A stretch of 64,000 bases of DNA, from NCBI RefSeq assembly GCF_006874645.1, contig NZ_CP030082.1, forward strand, positions 1,302,001 through 1,366,000. Reading direction: 5' to 3'. This DNA is from Bdellovibrio sp. ZAP7. Its GTDB lineage: Bacteria > Bdellovibrionota > Bdellovibrionia > Bdellovibrionales > Bdellovibrionaceae. Positions 48,987 to 59,271 of the stretch are shown here, one piece after another. The notes beneath the pieces were generated by a model. It searched no databases, was not told the DNA's origin, and worked only from the letters and a program-made list of their open reading frames with translations. The position numbers and the translations under genes were made by a program. The number at the start of each line of letters is the position of its first letter. Position 1 is the first letter of the stretch.

Positions 48987-49943
48987 TTAGTTCCCTTCAG
49001 CTTGAATCAATTCAGAAGTTTCCAAATTCATATGACGAGGACCACCTTTGCCAGGGCCGCCCGGACCGTTGCCAGGTTTACCAGGCGCAGGTCTTCCAGG
49101 ACCGGGACCCGGTTTCGGCGCAGGCGGTTTAGGCGCTGGAGCCGGTGGCTTCGGAGCCGGCGCAGGCGGTTTAGGTGCCGGAGCTGGTGGCTTCGGAGCT
49201 GGAGCTGGTGGCTTCGGAGCTGGAGCTGGTGGCTTCGGAGCTGGAGCTGGTGGCTTCGGAGCTGGAGCTGGTGGCTTCGGAGCTGGAGCTGGTGGCTTCG
49301 GAGCCGGAGCTGGTGGCTTCGGCGCTGGCGCAGGTGGCTTCGGAGCTGGCGCAGGCGGTTTAGGCGCTGGAGCTGGTGGCTTCGGAGCCGGAGCTGGTGG
49401 CTTCGGCGCTGGCGCAGGTGGTTTCGGAGCTGGCGCAGGTGGTTTCGGAGCTGGAGCTGGTGGCTTCGGAGCTGGAGCTGGTGGCTTCGGAGCTGGAGCT
49501 GGTGGCTTCGGCGCTGGCGCTGGTGGTTTCGGAGCTGGCGCTGGCGGTTTAGGTGCTGGTGCAGGAGGCTCTGGGCGTTTTGGGCACCAACGAGAAGAAA
49601 CTTCTTCTGATTCTGTCGTGCAGTTTACGACTGTGCAGTTTGCGAAGTTGCGTTGGCAAAGATTCACTGCAACTTGTTCAGCATTCCAGCGATCTTCGCC
49701 AGAACCTTTTACTGTGATTCGATTTCCTAGATAGTCTGTTCCGACAGCGTCACAAGTTGCATACTCAAGGTTGCAAGTCTCAACACAGTCACCATGTTTT
49801 GCTTGGCAAGAGCCGCAGCTATCATGGCCACCCCAATGTTCTTCCCAGCCTTTATCACGAGTACTGCATGTAACGCGTGACGCAAAAGCCGGTGCTGTTC
49901 CGAATGACAGCATAAAACTTAAAAACAGACTTAGTGGTTTCAT
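48987..49943 (-). CDS. Exported Cys-rich protein with ~21 PKPPAPA heptads
   Basis: 318 residues. Signal peptide ends near APAFASRV. A ~110-residue cysteine-rich head (CSTRDKG, CGSCQAKHGDCVETCNLEYATC, LCQRNFANCTVVNC) is followed by about 150 residues of the near-perfect heptad PKPPAPA. The end is a Pro/Gly-rich tail (PGPGPGRPAPGKPG). The proline repeat should form an extended polyproline-II rod, as in wall-spanning or TonB-like spacers. GGAGGAG precedes the ATG. Large antisense frames over the repeat (Gly/Ala-rich and Ser/Trp/Arg-rich) are artefacts of the 21-bp period. Confidence 0.75.
   Translation of the reverse strand: MKPLSLFLSFMLSFGTAPAFASRVTCSTRDKGWEEHWGGHDSCGSCQAKHGDCVETCNLEYATCDAVGTDYLGNRITVKGSGEDRWNAEQVAVNLCQRNFANCTVVNCTTESEEVSSRWCPKRPEPPAPAPKPPAPAPKPPAPAPKPPAPAPKPPAPAPKPPAPAPKPPAPAPKPPAPAPKPPAPAPKPPAPAPKPPAPAPKPPAPAPKPPAPAPKPPAPAPKPPAPAPKPPAPAPKPPAPAPKPPAPAPKPPAPAPKPPAPAPKPPAPAPKPPAPKPGPGPGRPAPGKPGNGPGGPGKGGPRHMNLETSELIQAEGN
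49120..49575 (-). repeat. 21-bp tandem repeat encoding PKPPAPA
   Basis: About 21 units of 21 bp, written on the plus strand as GG(C/T)TT(C/A)GG(A/C)GC(T/C)GG(A/C)GC(T/C)GG with third-position variation. All units keep the reading frame. Clusters of identical units (for example 49190-49300) suggest recent slippage or unequal crossing-over. Confidence 0.9.
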
Positions 49944-52201: not shown

Positions 52202-53125
52202 TTAGTTACATTTTTGATTGCGATAAAGCATGAAAACTTCAGCGGAAGTCAGTTCTTTGTTCCAAACCGCGAACTCATCCATGCTGCCTGAGAATGCAAT
52301 AGACGTCGGCGATGTATTGGTGCCGGAAGGCGCTCCGACCAAATAAAAAGGATAAGCGGCGTCACTGGTGAATCCGCCTACACCTGTAATTTGATACGTG
52401 TAACCACCATATGTGGCAGCATTCGGACAAGTACCCGGGGAGGCAAGATAAACACTTCCAGATCCTGTCGTAATAAGCTCAAATCCGTTCATATAGATTT
52501 TTACGCCGGTCGCATTGGAAGTTCCATCCCATGTGACCGTAATCATGCGCCAAGTATTATTGAACGAAGTCGCAATCGGACAAGTCTGAACGACCATATT
52601 TGTGATCGAGTGAACCTTTCTAAAATCAAATGATCCACTTGGACTTAAGGTAAAATAGTAGCCGGCAGAAGTACCGTTATTACTTTTATAAAACAGACGA
52701 ATCGGGGTGCTTGAGGGAATGCCCATATTCACCCAAAAGTTCCAAGTAGCCGCCGGCAAATCAGCTAGTGATGCCGCCGACGTCGAAATAGAGTCATTTG
52801 AATTTCCGGTGGCGGTTAAATAGTTCTTAAGAAAAGCGATACTAGCAGGCGCACCCGGATGATCCGCAAAGGACAGGGTTGAAGAAGGACTGCTTGCCGT
52901 TGCATTCGCGACTGCAATTTCGGAGGCGACGACGGAGCCATTGGTAACCGTGCCTGTGCCATTCAAATGATAAATTGCCTTAAGACTGTTAGCCTGAGGC
53001 ACCCATGAAGAAAGCGTCGTTGGTTGGCAGCGAAGAGTGGGGTAGCCCCTCATCGCAAATGACATATTCATTTGTGCGAAAGATTCAGCGCTAATAACTA
53101 AAAGAATTAACGCCAGCCATTTCAT
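52202..53125 (-). CDS. Exported LamG/concanavalin-like domain protein
   Basis: 307 residues from ATG 53125, which overlaps the stop of the upstream gene (TAATG), so it is translationally coupled to the fibre-like protein. Signal peptide ends near AESFAQ. A jelly-roll LamG3-type domain is recognised from TWNFWVNMGIP, RMITVTWDGTSNATGVKIYMNGFEL and FSGSMDEFAVWNKELTSAEVFMLY. Likely carbohydrate or protein binding at the surface. Paired cysteines (RCQP; TCPIA; GTCPN; KCN) suggest disulfides. Confidence 0.75.
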   Translation of the reverse strand: MKWLALILLVISAESFAQMNMSFAMRGYPTLRCQPTTLSSWVPQANSLKAIYHLNGTGTVTNGSVVASEIAVANATASSPSSTLSFADHPGAPASIAFLKNYLTATGNSNDSISTSAASLADLPAATWNFWVNMGIPSSTPIRLFYKSNNGTSAGYYFTLSPSGSFDFRKVHSITNMVVQTCPIATSFNNTWRMITVTWDGTSNATGVKIYMNGFELITTGSGSVYLASPGTCPNAATYGGYTYQITGVGGFTSDAAYPFYLVGAPSGTNTSPTSIAFSGSMDEFAVWNKELTSAEVFMLYRNQKCN

Positions 53126-54684
53126 TACTGGAATCCTGTTGACCAAGTGATGTAGCAATCAAAGTTCCCGGCGTTATTTACAGCCAGGATTGAAAAGACA
53201 GTATGAGTCGCAGAGATCGTCGCTTGAATCGGGGGAGAATAACGGGAAGTCGTGCAACCCGAGAATGAATAAGTACGAGACGTTGTATCTTGAACGACGA
53301 TCGTGTAGTTACCACCATGAACCAAACCGTTTAACGTTATGACTGATCCACCCACAGCGGTTAATAGCTGTGTATTACCCAATGCCAGATTCACAGTTGA
53401 TCCCGTCACGGCTGCTGGAGGAACGCTGACGATAGGGCCTTTTACTTGCAAGCTGCCAGCGCCAGTAGCCAAGCCGACGATGACATTCCCGTTGGTATCG
53501 ATGTCCAAACGATTCGTGCCGGCAGTTTTCAAAGAGAAATTATTCGCGTCGTTTGTTCCAACCGTAGTTGCAACTCCATAGGAGTTACCACCATTATACA
53601 AAATTCCCGTCGGAAGATCTGCCGAGGCAATTGCTCTAAAAGCGGGAGTGCCAGCAGCGCCACTGGGTGCCGCCATAAAAGTCGCAGACGCCTGAGTGCC
53701 AAAGTTAGTTCCACTCACGCTGATGTTTTGGCAGCTCAAGTTGTCCATCGCGGAGTTATAGGTCAGTGTCTGACTAGCAGTACAAGAAGTTGGTAAACTT
53801 ACAGTTCCTGTGACGATCGAACGTAAATCTGTCATCGTCACAAAACCCGGCGTCCAAAGCGTGCCATCATAGCGAAGTACTTGTCCTGACGTTGTTGGTG
53901 TTACCGCAGCTATATTAGTCCCGCGCAAAGCCCCCACTGTTGGGTTTGGGTAGCTGTTCGTTAAGTCACCGCCCGCCGTCGCACCGATTTGCATCGCATT
54001 GACGATACGAGAATCATTCCCGGCGGCAACAGTTCCTGTTGTTGTGCCCGCATTCAAAGTCAGGGTGGGTGTCGTCGTACCATTTGTAACAGTGATATAA
54101 GAGTTTGCCGAAGAAACACTTGTTACACTAGCCGTTGCCGAAACCGAAGCGCAGGACAGAGTTGTTCCGTTGTAAGTTAGATACTGGCCAGCAGCACAAG
54201 TCGGCAGTCCCGCTTTTAAAAGAAAATCAGTAACGTCTTTATCAGCAAGCTTCATCGCATTGATTGAAACTGGAATATTCCCGATCACCACATCGGGGCT
54301 CATCGATACGCTATTCACTTTGATATGCAAAGAGCGAACAGTGAAACCTGTGATCGTGGTGCTGGCAGCTCCCTCACAATTCACACTGCCACTGGAGGCG
54401 AAAATACGATCTGCTGTATTGCCCGTGCTATCGGTGCGTGTACCGATACCCACGATGGCGCTAAATTCACCGACACTGCCGGGAGTAATGGTTTGCGTTT
54501 CTTCAAATAAGATACAGGCGCCCGTGAGAATTTGAAATGTGACCGTAGAAGAAGTGGTGATCGGAGTGCCCCCCGAATCCGTCAGGACACCTTCATAGGT
54601 CAATAAACTGCCGGGAGCAGCGGAGACAGCCCACGTCAGTTGACCCATTAAGAAAATAAAAATGCCGAACAGTGATTTCTTCAA
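53125..54684 (-). CDS. Tail-fibre-like exported adhesin (MAT-like)
   Basis: 519 residues from a TTG start behind GAGGG. Signal peptide ends near VSAAP. The N-terminal domain (GSLLTYEGVLTDSGGTPITTSSTVTFQIL... CILFEETQT) is followed by repetitive Thr/Ser/Gly-rich shaft sequence. The shaft has phage-tail-fibre phrases (TGTVAAGNDSRIVNAMQIG, GGDLTNSYPNPTVGALRG, YDGTLWTPG). A distinct C-terminal domain (ALGNTQLLTAVGGSVITLNG... SGCTTSRYSPPIQATISATHTVFSI) ends the protein. The layout is like the mosaic adhesive trimer fibres described in Bdellovibrio, used to recognise prey. Trimerisation and ligand are inferred. Confidence 0.7.
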   Translation of the reverse strand: MKKSLFGIFIFLMGQLTWAVSAAPGSLLTYEGVLTDSGGTPITTSSTVTFQILTGACILFEETQTITPGSVGEFSAIVGIGTRTDSTGNTADRIFASSGSVNCEGAASTTITGFTVRSLHIKVNSVSMSPDVVIGNIPVSINAMKLADKDVTDFLLKAGLPTCAAGQYLTYNGTTLSCASVSATASVTSVSSANSYITVTNGTTTPTLTLNAGTTTGTVAAGNDSRIVNAMQIGATAGGDLTNSYPNPTVGALRGTNIAAVTPTTSGQVLRYDGTLWTPGFVTMTDLRSIVTGTVSLPTSCTASQTLTYNSAMDNLSCQNISVSGTNFGTQASATFMAAPSGAAGTPAFRAIASADLPTGILYNGGNSYGVATTVGTNDANNFSLKTAGTNRLDIDTNGNVIVGLATGAGSLQVKGPIVSVPPAAVTGSTVNLALGNTQLLTAVGGSVITLNGLVHGGNYTIVVQDTTSRTYSFSGCTTSRYSPPIQATISATHTVFSILAVNNAGNFDCYITWSTGFQ

Positions 54685-57774: not shown

Positions 57775-59271
57775 TTAACCTCTAATCAGTGGCAGGATTT
57801 CACGTCGGTGATTCACACCCAAGTACGTATAGCTTGATTCCAATGTGCCATACACACCATAACCTTGAGTTGTTCCTACCTCGTAGTCTGCTGGTTGCAT
57901 GCCCATGGCTTGCATGATCGTGATCAGCAATTGGTTGTAAGGACGACCGCGTTTGTAATCGCCTTCGTCACCACCAATAGGACGGCGCAAGTTTCCATAG
58001 GAAGGGCCATAGTCAATGTGACGGCCGGGCTTTAAGAAGCCACCCGCACTGCCTGCAAGCAAGACGGGATTATTCACAGAGTTGTGGGCATTGGTATTTT
58101 TCGTCGTACCTTGGTCATTACCCCACATGATCAGGGAATTATCCAAGTACGTCGTACCTGTCGTTGAATCCTCAACCACATCCATACGAGTTAAGAAGCG
58201 TGATACGCGGTTCGCAAAGAAAGTCATCATCGCAAGTTTCATCGCGCGAAGCTCGTCCGTGCCAGCGTGATTGATGTCTTCATGGAAGCGGTTTGAACCC
58301 GTGATCCCAGGAACAAAGTTTACCGAACCACTGAAATAGTCGTAAACGTGCATCATCAAAGTTGCCACTTGGATTTTTCCGCACTTAACGCCCACCTCGA
58401 TCACGTCAAACATCTGATCAATGACCACTTGGTAGTCTGCAGGATTTGACGACTTCGTCGGTGACGACGTCGGACCCGTCGGTGAAGTACATGTCATCGG
58501 CGGGGGAGCTGTGACATTGGCGTTTAGTTTCTTTTGCAGATCACTGATCAAAGCCATGTGTTGCTCAACGCGGGCTAAGTCATCCTTGGAAAGACGTTTA
58601 TTCGAGCGTAAGTTCACATACTCTGCATAAACTTTATCAACGACCAGGATATCACGACGAGTCAGCTTATCCGCTGCACTTGGTGTCGTCGTTGATGTCC
58701 CCGTACCAAACATGCTTGAAAACACGGCCGATGGATTGAACTGACCAGGCACATAGGCCTTGTTTAAAACACTCACGTGCGAAGCACCGGTATAGTTTCC
58801 GTCATCCACCGATTTAACGTAAAGATTCAGCGGAGAGCCACCATATAGATATTTTGCAATCACTTGGTCAATACTGCTGGTCGCCTCGGAAAGCACGCCA
58901 CCAGTGAGCATACACTCGGCATTGTGATTCGGAGTTTTTGAAAGGGGATCCAGACGGGAAAGAATCAAAAGTTTCGAGCGAAGGGAGTCAAACTGACTGC
59001 CCAGCACTGGAGACATATTATTTGGAATCGCGGATAGAGCGACTTCGCGGGCGTAAGTTTGCTTTTCACTCCACGTGAATTTCGCTGGGTCGGGAAGCCA
59101 ATGCTCCACGGCCTGACAGTGACCATTATGAATGGCGATAAAACGTTTTTTAATAGTCGGCCCGGTTTGCGCCTCGGCTTGCGGAAGCATGGAAGGCAGA
59201 AAAGGCAAAGCGAGTGCAAGACCACCGGTGCCTCTTAAAAACTGACGACGTGATAACTTATTCCAATGCAT
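57775..59271 (-). CDS. DUF1552 protein with Tat signal
   Basis: 498 residues. The twin-arginine leader SRRQFLRGTGGLALALPFLP points to export in folded form. DUF1552 hallmarks: FIAIHNGHCQAVEHWLPD, TPNHNAECMLTGG, SIDQVIAKYL, NRFHEDINHAG, NSLIMWGNDQG and GRPYNQLLITIMQAMG. This family accompanies DUF1592/1588-type cytochrome proteins, as here with the upstream gene 9 bp away. It belongs to a sulfatase/phosphatase-like superfamily fold, but the reaction is unknown. GAGG precedes the ATG. Confidence 0.9.
   Translation of the reverse strand: MHWNKLSRRQFLRGTGGLALALPFLPSMLPQAEAQTGPTIKKRFIAIHNGHCQAVEHWLPDPAKFTWSEKQTYAREVALSAIPNNMSPVLGSQFDSLRSKLLILSRLDPLSKTPNHNAECMLTGGVLSEATSSIDQVIAKYLYGGSPLNLYVKSVDDGNYTGASHVSVLNKAYVPGQFNPSAVFSSMFGTGTSTTTPSAADKLTRRDILVVDKVYAEYVNLRSNKRLSKDDLARVEQHMALISDLQKKLNANVTAPPPMTCTSPTGPTSSPTKSSNPADYQVVIDQMFDVIEVGVKCGKIQVATLMMHVYDYFSGSVNFVPGITGSNRFHEDINHAGTDELRAMKLAMMTFFANRVSRFLTRMDVVEDSTTGTTYLDNSLIMWGNDQGTTKNTNAHNSVNNPVLLAGSAGGFLKPGRHIDYGPSYGNLRRPIGGDEGDYKRGRPYNQLLITIMQAMGMQPADYEVGTTQGYGVYGTLESSYTYLGVNHRREILPLIRG

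Follow-up and report, generated by a model that had tools for sequence, protein, structure and literature searches.

A MAT-family fibre gene of Bdellovibrio sp. ZAP7 coupled to a gene for an exported LamG protein, and a proposed class of fibre tips with interchangeable heads

The fibre gene, the LamG gene and their junction

The window analyzed here, a stretch of 64,000 nucleotides from contig NZ_CP030082.1 of Bdellovibrio sp. ZAP7, includes an open reading frame of 519 amino acids with a TTG start (positions 53125-54684, minus strand). Residues 13-158 of the product (54211-54648, minus strand) match the profile NF053851, "mosaic adhesive trimer family chimeric fiber protein" (MAT), with 94.9 bits against a cut-off of 60. 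By its sequence, the protein is a MAT-family fibre, and it is presumed to form trimers. Its parts are those of the MAT fibres of Bdellovibrio bacteriovorus HD100, namely a signal peptide, a conserved N-terminal domain, a shaft, and a variable non-S74 tip (PMC10769870; NCBIfam NF053851). The putative signal peptide, approximately residues 1-22 (MKKSLFGIFIFLMGQLTWAVSA; 54619-54684, minus strand), was recognized by inspection and hydropathy, and behind it lies the β-rich conserved N-terminal domain, about 130 amino acids long, that the profile detects. The shaft, approximately residues 159-413 (53446-54210, minus strand), was assigned through its likeness to those of other MATs encoded in the same genome, to which it is 34-43% similar. 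The C-terminal tip domain, a proposed socket formed by residues 414-519 (53128-53445, minus strand), was delimited using alignment A2 and an AlphaFold2 model and is compact. It does not belong to the S74 type: none of the four S74 sites in the source genome (G000; 4.12 Mb, one contig) is located inside the fibre gene. The eight MATs of this genome consist of these four sites and four proteins with the present tip type, one of the latter weak. Both the profile match and the compact C-terminal domain bear out the original prediction of a MAT-like fibre with a shaft and a distinct C-terminal domain.

The second gene (52202-53125, minus strand) encodes a 307-amino acid protein of a conserved family (A1) that matches Pfam PF13385 with an E value of 2.5e-13 (50.9 bits, cut-off 27.6). 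An open reading frame of 318 amino acids is the TTG-extended version of the same gene, the ATG form of which begins at the overlap with the fibre gene. The predicted signal peptide, approximately residues 1-17 (MKWLALILLVISAESFA; 53075-53125, minus strand), was identified by inspection. It is followed by the mature N-terminal peptide QMNMSFAMRGYPTLRC (53027-53074, minus strand), a candidate plug in the hypothesis developed below, chosen for its position and by comparison with other heads. The LamG/ConA-like region, approximately residues 109-297 (52235-52801, minus strand), comprises the best PF13385 stretch, residues 109-220, and a second stretch. By profile, the protein is a member of the LamG/ConA-like lectin superfamily. 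Its structural model has a mean pLDDT of 53.8, with a core (about residues 121-230) that reaches approximately 62-84 over residues 121-220, and at this low confidence a fold search returned generic ConA-like folds (E 4e-6). The clostridial neurotoxin binding domains among the top Foldseek hits are generic jelly-rolls, matched at low model confidence, and were discarded as uninformative on function. Assignment to the TafC fimbrial family was rejected (22.8 bits against a cut-off of 410). A comparison of the family profile with solved structures retrieved an S-layer protein at 9e-5. In the pilin PilC, a LamG-type module is presented at a filament. This modular pilin of Streptococcus sanguinis (7oa8) ranks third among the folds found for the LamG model; its module is covalent with the pilin, while here the module is a separate exported protein.

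The fibre stop codon TAA (53127-53125) and the LamG ATG (53125-53123) have one base in common, forming the sequence TAATG (53123-53127, minus strand), as originally predicted. An AGGA motif within the last fibre codons (53134-53137, minus strand), 8 nucleotides ahead of the ATG, is a possible ribosome site for the LamG gene. A transporter gene on the opposite strand ends right at the LamG stop codon and the next gene upstream of the fibre gene is divergent; therefore, the two genes form a two-gene unit. A scan for promoters and terminators produced hits no more numerous than those in shuffled sequences. The minus strand of the window also encodes two other exported proteins. One, at 48987-49943, has 318 amino acids with about 20 tandem units of the Pro-Ala-Pro-Lys-Pro type, and its orthologue adjoins the same fibre locus in another genome (G015, L032). 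The other, at 57775-59271, has 498 amino acids and a twin-arginine (SRRQFLRG) export signal.

Linkage between the fibre tip and the downstream gene

The LamG gene was found in 10 copies distributed among 8 of the 66 genomes of the family, and each of the 10 immediately follows a MAT gene, with homology among these MATs over the final 106 residues. A paralogue in the source genome, 47% identical, lies directly behind a MAT of 1847 amino acids. The junction is TAATG in six cases, a two-nucleotide gap in three, and different in one. Since the gene order recurs in all 10 homologues, the overlap is not mere chance. Separation of the two genes in all relatives, the outcome named at the outset as speaking against the pair, was not what we found: wherever a relative has the LamG gene, the two are adjacent. 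As expected from the mosaic character of the family, the fibres ahead of the LamG genes range from 518 to 1847 amino acids and differ in their N-termini, so it is the tip to which the LamG gene is tied. The tip also occurs in a MAT of 1946 amino acids in the source genome and in its orthologue, neither with a LamG gene behind it. A LamG match in genome G009 was rejected as a further pair because it sits in a lipoprotein-like open reading frame of 1425 amino acids that is not a MAT, and a wider scan of genome contigs for the LamG protein found a single copy in Bdellovibrio, the remaining matches being distantly related LamG proteins of a generic kind. The PF13385 match, the overlap and the preservation of the pair support the prediction that the two genes form a unit in which a separate gene encodes the partner, a putative jelly-roll protein.

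The tip was then followed on its own. A tip profile (A2) detected it in 33 of the 66 family genomes. When a broader profile (A3) was applied to 141 genomes of the order, 61 genomes from 26 genera proved to have the tip. A downstream gene was considered coupled when an open reading frame of at least 150 amino acids on the same strand started between -60 and +40 nucleotides from the fibre stop codon. By this definition, 42 of 59 distinct tips in the family are coupled, and 39 of the 42 downstream products have a strongly hydrophobic N-terminus. Inspection removed three membrane proteins from the 39 (L122, L145, and L158, the last of them thioredoxin-like in a sub-threshold match), leaving about 36 exported heads, a judgement made from hydropathy and by eye rather than with a dedicated predictor. 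The products at L024 and L147 were also rejected as heads, being cytosolic by inspection. About 17 of the 59 tips have no coupled gene, including two close relatives of LamG-linked tips.

The MATs with S74 tips were used as controls. Only 3 of the 30 in the genus have any such open reading frame, two of them with hydrophobic N-termini. One of these two is itself the following MAT; the second results from an over-extended TTG start, the real gene beginning about 127 nucleotides on; after inspection, a coupled head was present in 0 of 30. Comparison of the two tip classes by Fisher's test gave p values of 6e-8 without inspection and 1.6e-9 with it, both of which are too optimistic because the tips are related to each other. 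An independent sample, taken from other families of the order, showed coupling of 11 of 20 tips; nine of the 11 downstream products have Sec-like hydrophobic N-termini and two have Tat-like twin-arginine signals, one of them confirmed by Pfam. These results indicated that a tip-specific genetic linkage between the fibre and the downstream gene is well supported and that the present tip, as defined by sequence, marks a class of MATs. The predicted pairing of the fibre and LamG genes is real but was drawn too narrowly, the LamG pair being one case of a tip class coupled to many heads.

Three other arrangements were observed in the course of the survey. At L019 (2597-7168), a MAT with an S74 tip is followed 127 nucleotides later by an exported 427-amino acid open reading frame, PA14-like by eye, which is possibly a looser, second kind of linkage between fibre and partner. 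A single open reading frame of 1869 amino acids in G034 (contig C19, 345292-346893) has two domains of the present tip type, one of them internal. In G044 (L160; contig C1, 2722-2736 kb), one strand encodes three consecutive MAT N-terminal domains, and an RCC1 head gene separates two of the fibres.

Genome G001, with 21 MATs, was taken to be that of the type strain, HD100. The number of MATs in HD100 is 21 (PMC10769870). A single one of them has the present tip, a non-S74 MAT of 1964 amino acids whose end overlaps the gene for an NHL propeller of 711 amino acids (L221, 1789-3918). None of the seven other non-S74 MATs of this strain has a coupled open reading frame of at least 150 amino acids: six have no partner and one, presumably Bd2872 from its position and length, is followed only by an open reading frame of 145 amino acids.

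The AlphaFold2 model of the last 125 amino acids of the fibre has a pLDDT of 92.7. The closest folds identified by Foldseek and VIA-align, most of them trimeric structural domains of phages, were the capsid spike of Pa223 (Z 7.6) and a domain of the phage Solidus tailspike (7.1), followed by XD1 of the CBA120 tailspike TSP4 (6.0), CpaA (5.9), T4 gp9 (5.8), and StcE (4.7), with a range of 5.4-6.0 for TSP4 XD1, gp9, and CpaA; since every Z is below 8, these likenesses are a lead only. The model also matches 151 predicted viral proteins at an E value of 0.001 or better, and many among the best listed are annotated as tail-fibre or fibre-like. A search of the fibre and the tip profile against the sequences of solved structures found nothing useful for the tip, tblastn of the tip against phage genomes found no match, and a PHROG scan of all tips found weak tail-fibre matches (best 9e-6). 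The tip may resemble in fold the trimeric β domains placed on the fibre axis in TSP4, a part of the branched tailspike complex of phage CBA120 (PMC8825819), and in T4 gp9/gp10. In TSP4, however, docking is the task of XD2 and XD3, and XD1 is regarded as a spacer (PMC8825819); therefore, the fold alone is no proof of docking. Domains of CpaA and StcE with the XD1 fold are called glycan-binding (PMC8825819) and, given this possible likeness of the model, the tip itself could bind prey.

Diversity of the heads and a proposed docking mechanism

The heads behind this one tip class are diverse. Their sizes range from 182 to over 1400 amino acids, and the Pfam types among them include LamG, RCC1, DUF5122, NHL and Kelch propellers, thrombospondin type 1 (TSP1), Big_2 with PA14, DUF285, FGE-like, Gly-rich, and Lcl_C-like domains, while several have no match. 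On a quick tree of the tips with moderate support, 29 typed heads of nine kinds require at least 13 changes, and RCC1, NHL, and DUF5122 heads each appear at several places. In G037, a tip of the present class and an Lcl_C domain (37.7 bits, cut-off 34.9) form one continuous chain; this open reading frame is cut by the contig start and its N-terminus is outside the sequence. At other loci, an Lcl_C-like domain with sub-threshold scores is found in a separate coupled gene. The one natural fusion of tip and Lcl_C (L143, 3-2605) nonetheless has a coupled Gly-rich exported open reading frame behind it. The Gly-rich coupled heads (L249, 901-1698; L143, 1721-2605; L116, 2575-3495) are reminiscent of the polyglycine domain at the tip of phage gp38, and among the three only that of L249 has a Pfam match above the cut-off (ALK_LTK_GRD).

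Many heads of unrelated fold have similar mature N-termini, such as FGFF, GFWQK, GFWKS, SFFKR, and AFWKR. This aromatic pattern, picked after inspection, is present in 18 of 36 heads and in 7 of 78 other exported proteins; in the new sample it is present in 4 of 11 heads (p 0.03). The LamG heads have it in a weak variant only. Crystals of the MAT Bd2133 show each trimer with a single peptide bound at the tip (PMC10769870). We propose a socket and plug because the Bd2133 tip binds a peptide and the N-termini of unrelated heads are alike.

MAT fibres are anchored at the predator surface through the N-terminal domain. The first gene of the locus would produce a short fibre held in this manner, whose C-terminal domain would be a trimeric socket and not the final binding tip. 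The LamG head would be translated off the same message by means of the overlapping stop and start codons, exported, and docked on the socket, probably through its mature N-terminal peptide, so that it faces the prey. We consider such a two-gene adhesin, a short MAT fibre with a separate LamG head, the probable product of this locus; docking, stoichiometry, and prey binding are what we infer. Across the order, the socket would be kept in evolution while one head fold replaces another, and the separate head gene would let a three-fold tip bear one large head. That the coupled genes form an order-wide system, in which a conserved class of socket MATs accepts interchangeable exported heads and prey range is diversified by swapping heads as well as tips, seems to us fairly probable.

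Overlap of two genes is by itself no sign of contact between their products, and the locus could instead encode two independent exported adhesins placed on one message for dosage that never touch each other. We regard this explanation as unlikely: the coupling is specific to the tip and absent behind S74 tips, the heads were exchanged repeatedly behind one tip class, a tip and an Lcl_C domain occur fused, and a similar N-terminal peptide is common to many heads. The downstream protein might also act as a chaperone dedicated to the assembly of its fibre, in the manner of T4 gp38 or lambda Tfa, and be absent from the finished fibre. Phage fibre genes often have a chaperone gene behind them, T4 gp38 is released once assembly is done (PMC12892980), and the coupling does track the tip type. 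One conserved tip should, however, have a conserved chaperone, whereas the folds found here are unrelated, mostly repeat and lectin, and some MATs with the same tip are partnerless, which makes a chaperone improbable. Lastly, some MATs move to the vesicle left behind in the prey (PMC10769870), but use of the fibre as a carrier for a head that is released or left there as an effector-like or structural secreted protein is very doubtful, the heads being mostly repeat and lectin folds with no obvious catalytic families.

Relation to known fibres and significance

The proposed docking of heads on the MAT tip has its closest model in phages T2, S16, and PP01, where gp37 is a trimeric fibre with gp38, a separate receptor-binding protein, on its tip, and the gene order is fibre, then adhesin. 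In both systems, the gene of the separate adhesin immediately follows that of the fibre; docking in the present case is a proposal. Phage gp38 attaches to gp37 through its N-terminus (PMC12892980). In contrast to gp37-gp38, no sequence relation to them was found for the proteins described here, and the heads are LamG domains, propellers, and others; a search for homology between the LamG protein and gp38 found only a PHROG of unknown function (E 0.012), which was not counted as membership. The tip is most likely a socket for a separately encoded, interchangeable head, as gp37 carries gp38.

Unlike the described HD100 MATs, the fibre has a tip class with no sequence-level match to a solved structure and a second, coupled gene for an exported partner. 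The main text of the 2024 MAT paper (PMC10769870) and the other open-access papers searched contain no partner gene of MAT fibres, in agreement with the initial view that such a device had not been described before. MAT fibres are known; a two-part, phage-fibre-like adhesin with interchangeable heads in a cellular predator would be a new form of a familiar kind of structure.

The recognition of diverse prey by Bdellovibrio has the MAT fibres as its leading candidates. Yet the loss of any one MAT by deletion has little effect, and a single glycan specificity has been demonstrated. Should an entire class of these fibres bear separate heads, some of the binding repertoire will have escaped notice, since the genes look like those of unrelated RCC1, NHL, or LamG proteins. 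The arrangement, if true, would be a cellular counterpart of phage gp37/gp38 and could explain how a trimeric fibre carries one large head without fusing three copies of it. Since HD100 holds one such pair, the model is directly testable in that strain. The linkage of one tip class with many heads suggests that these predators change the grip of their fibres by swapping a separately made head.
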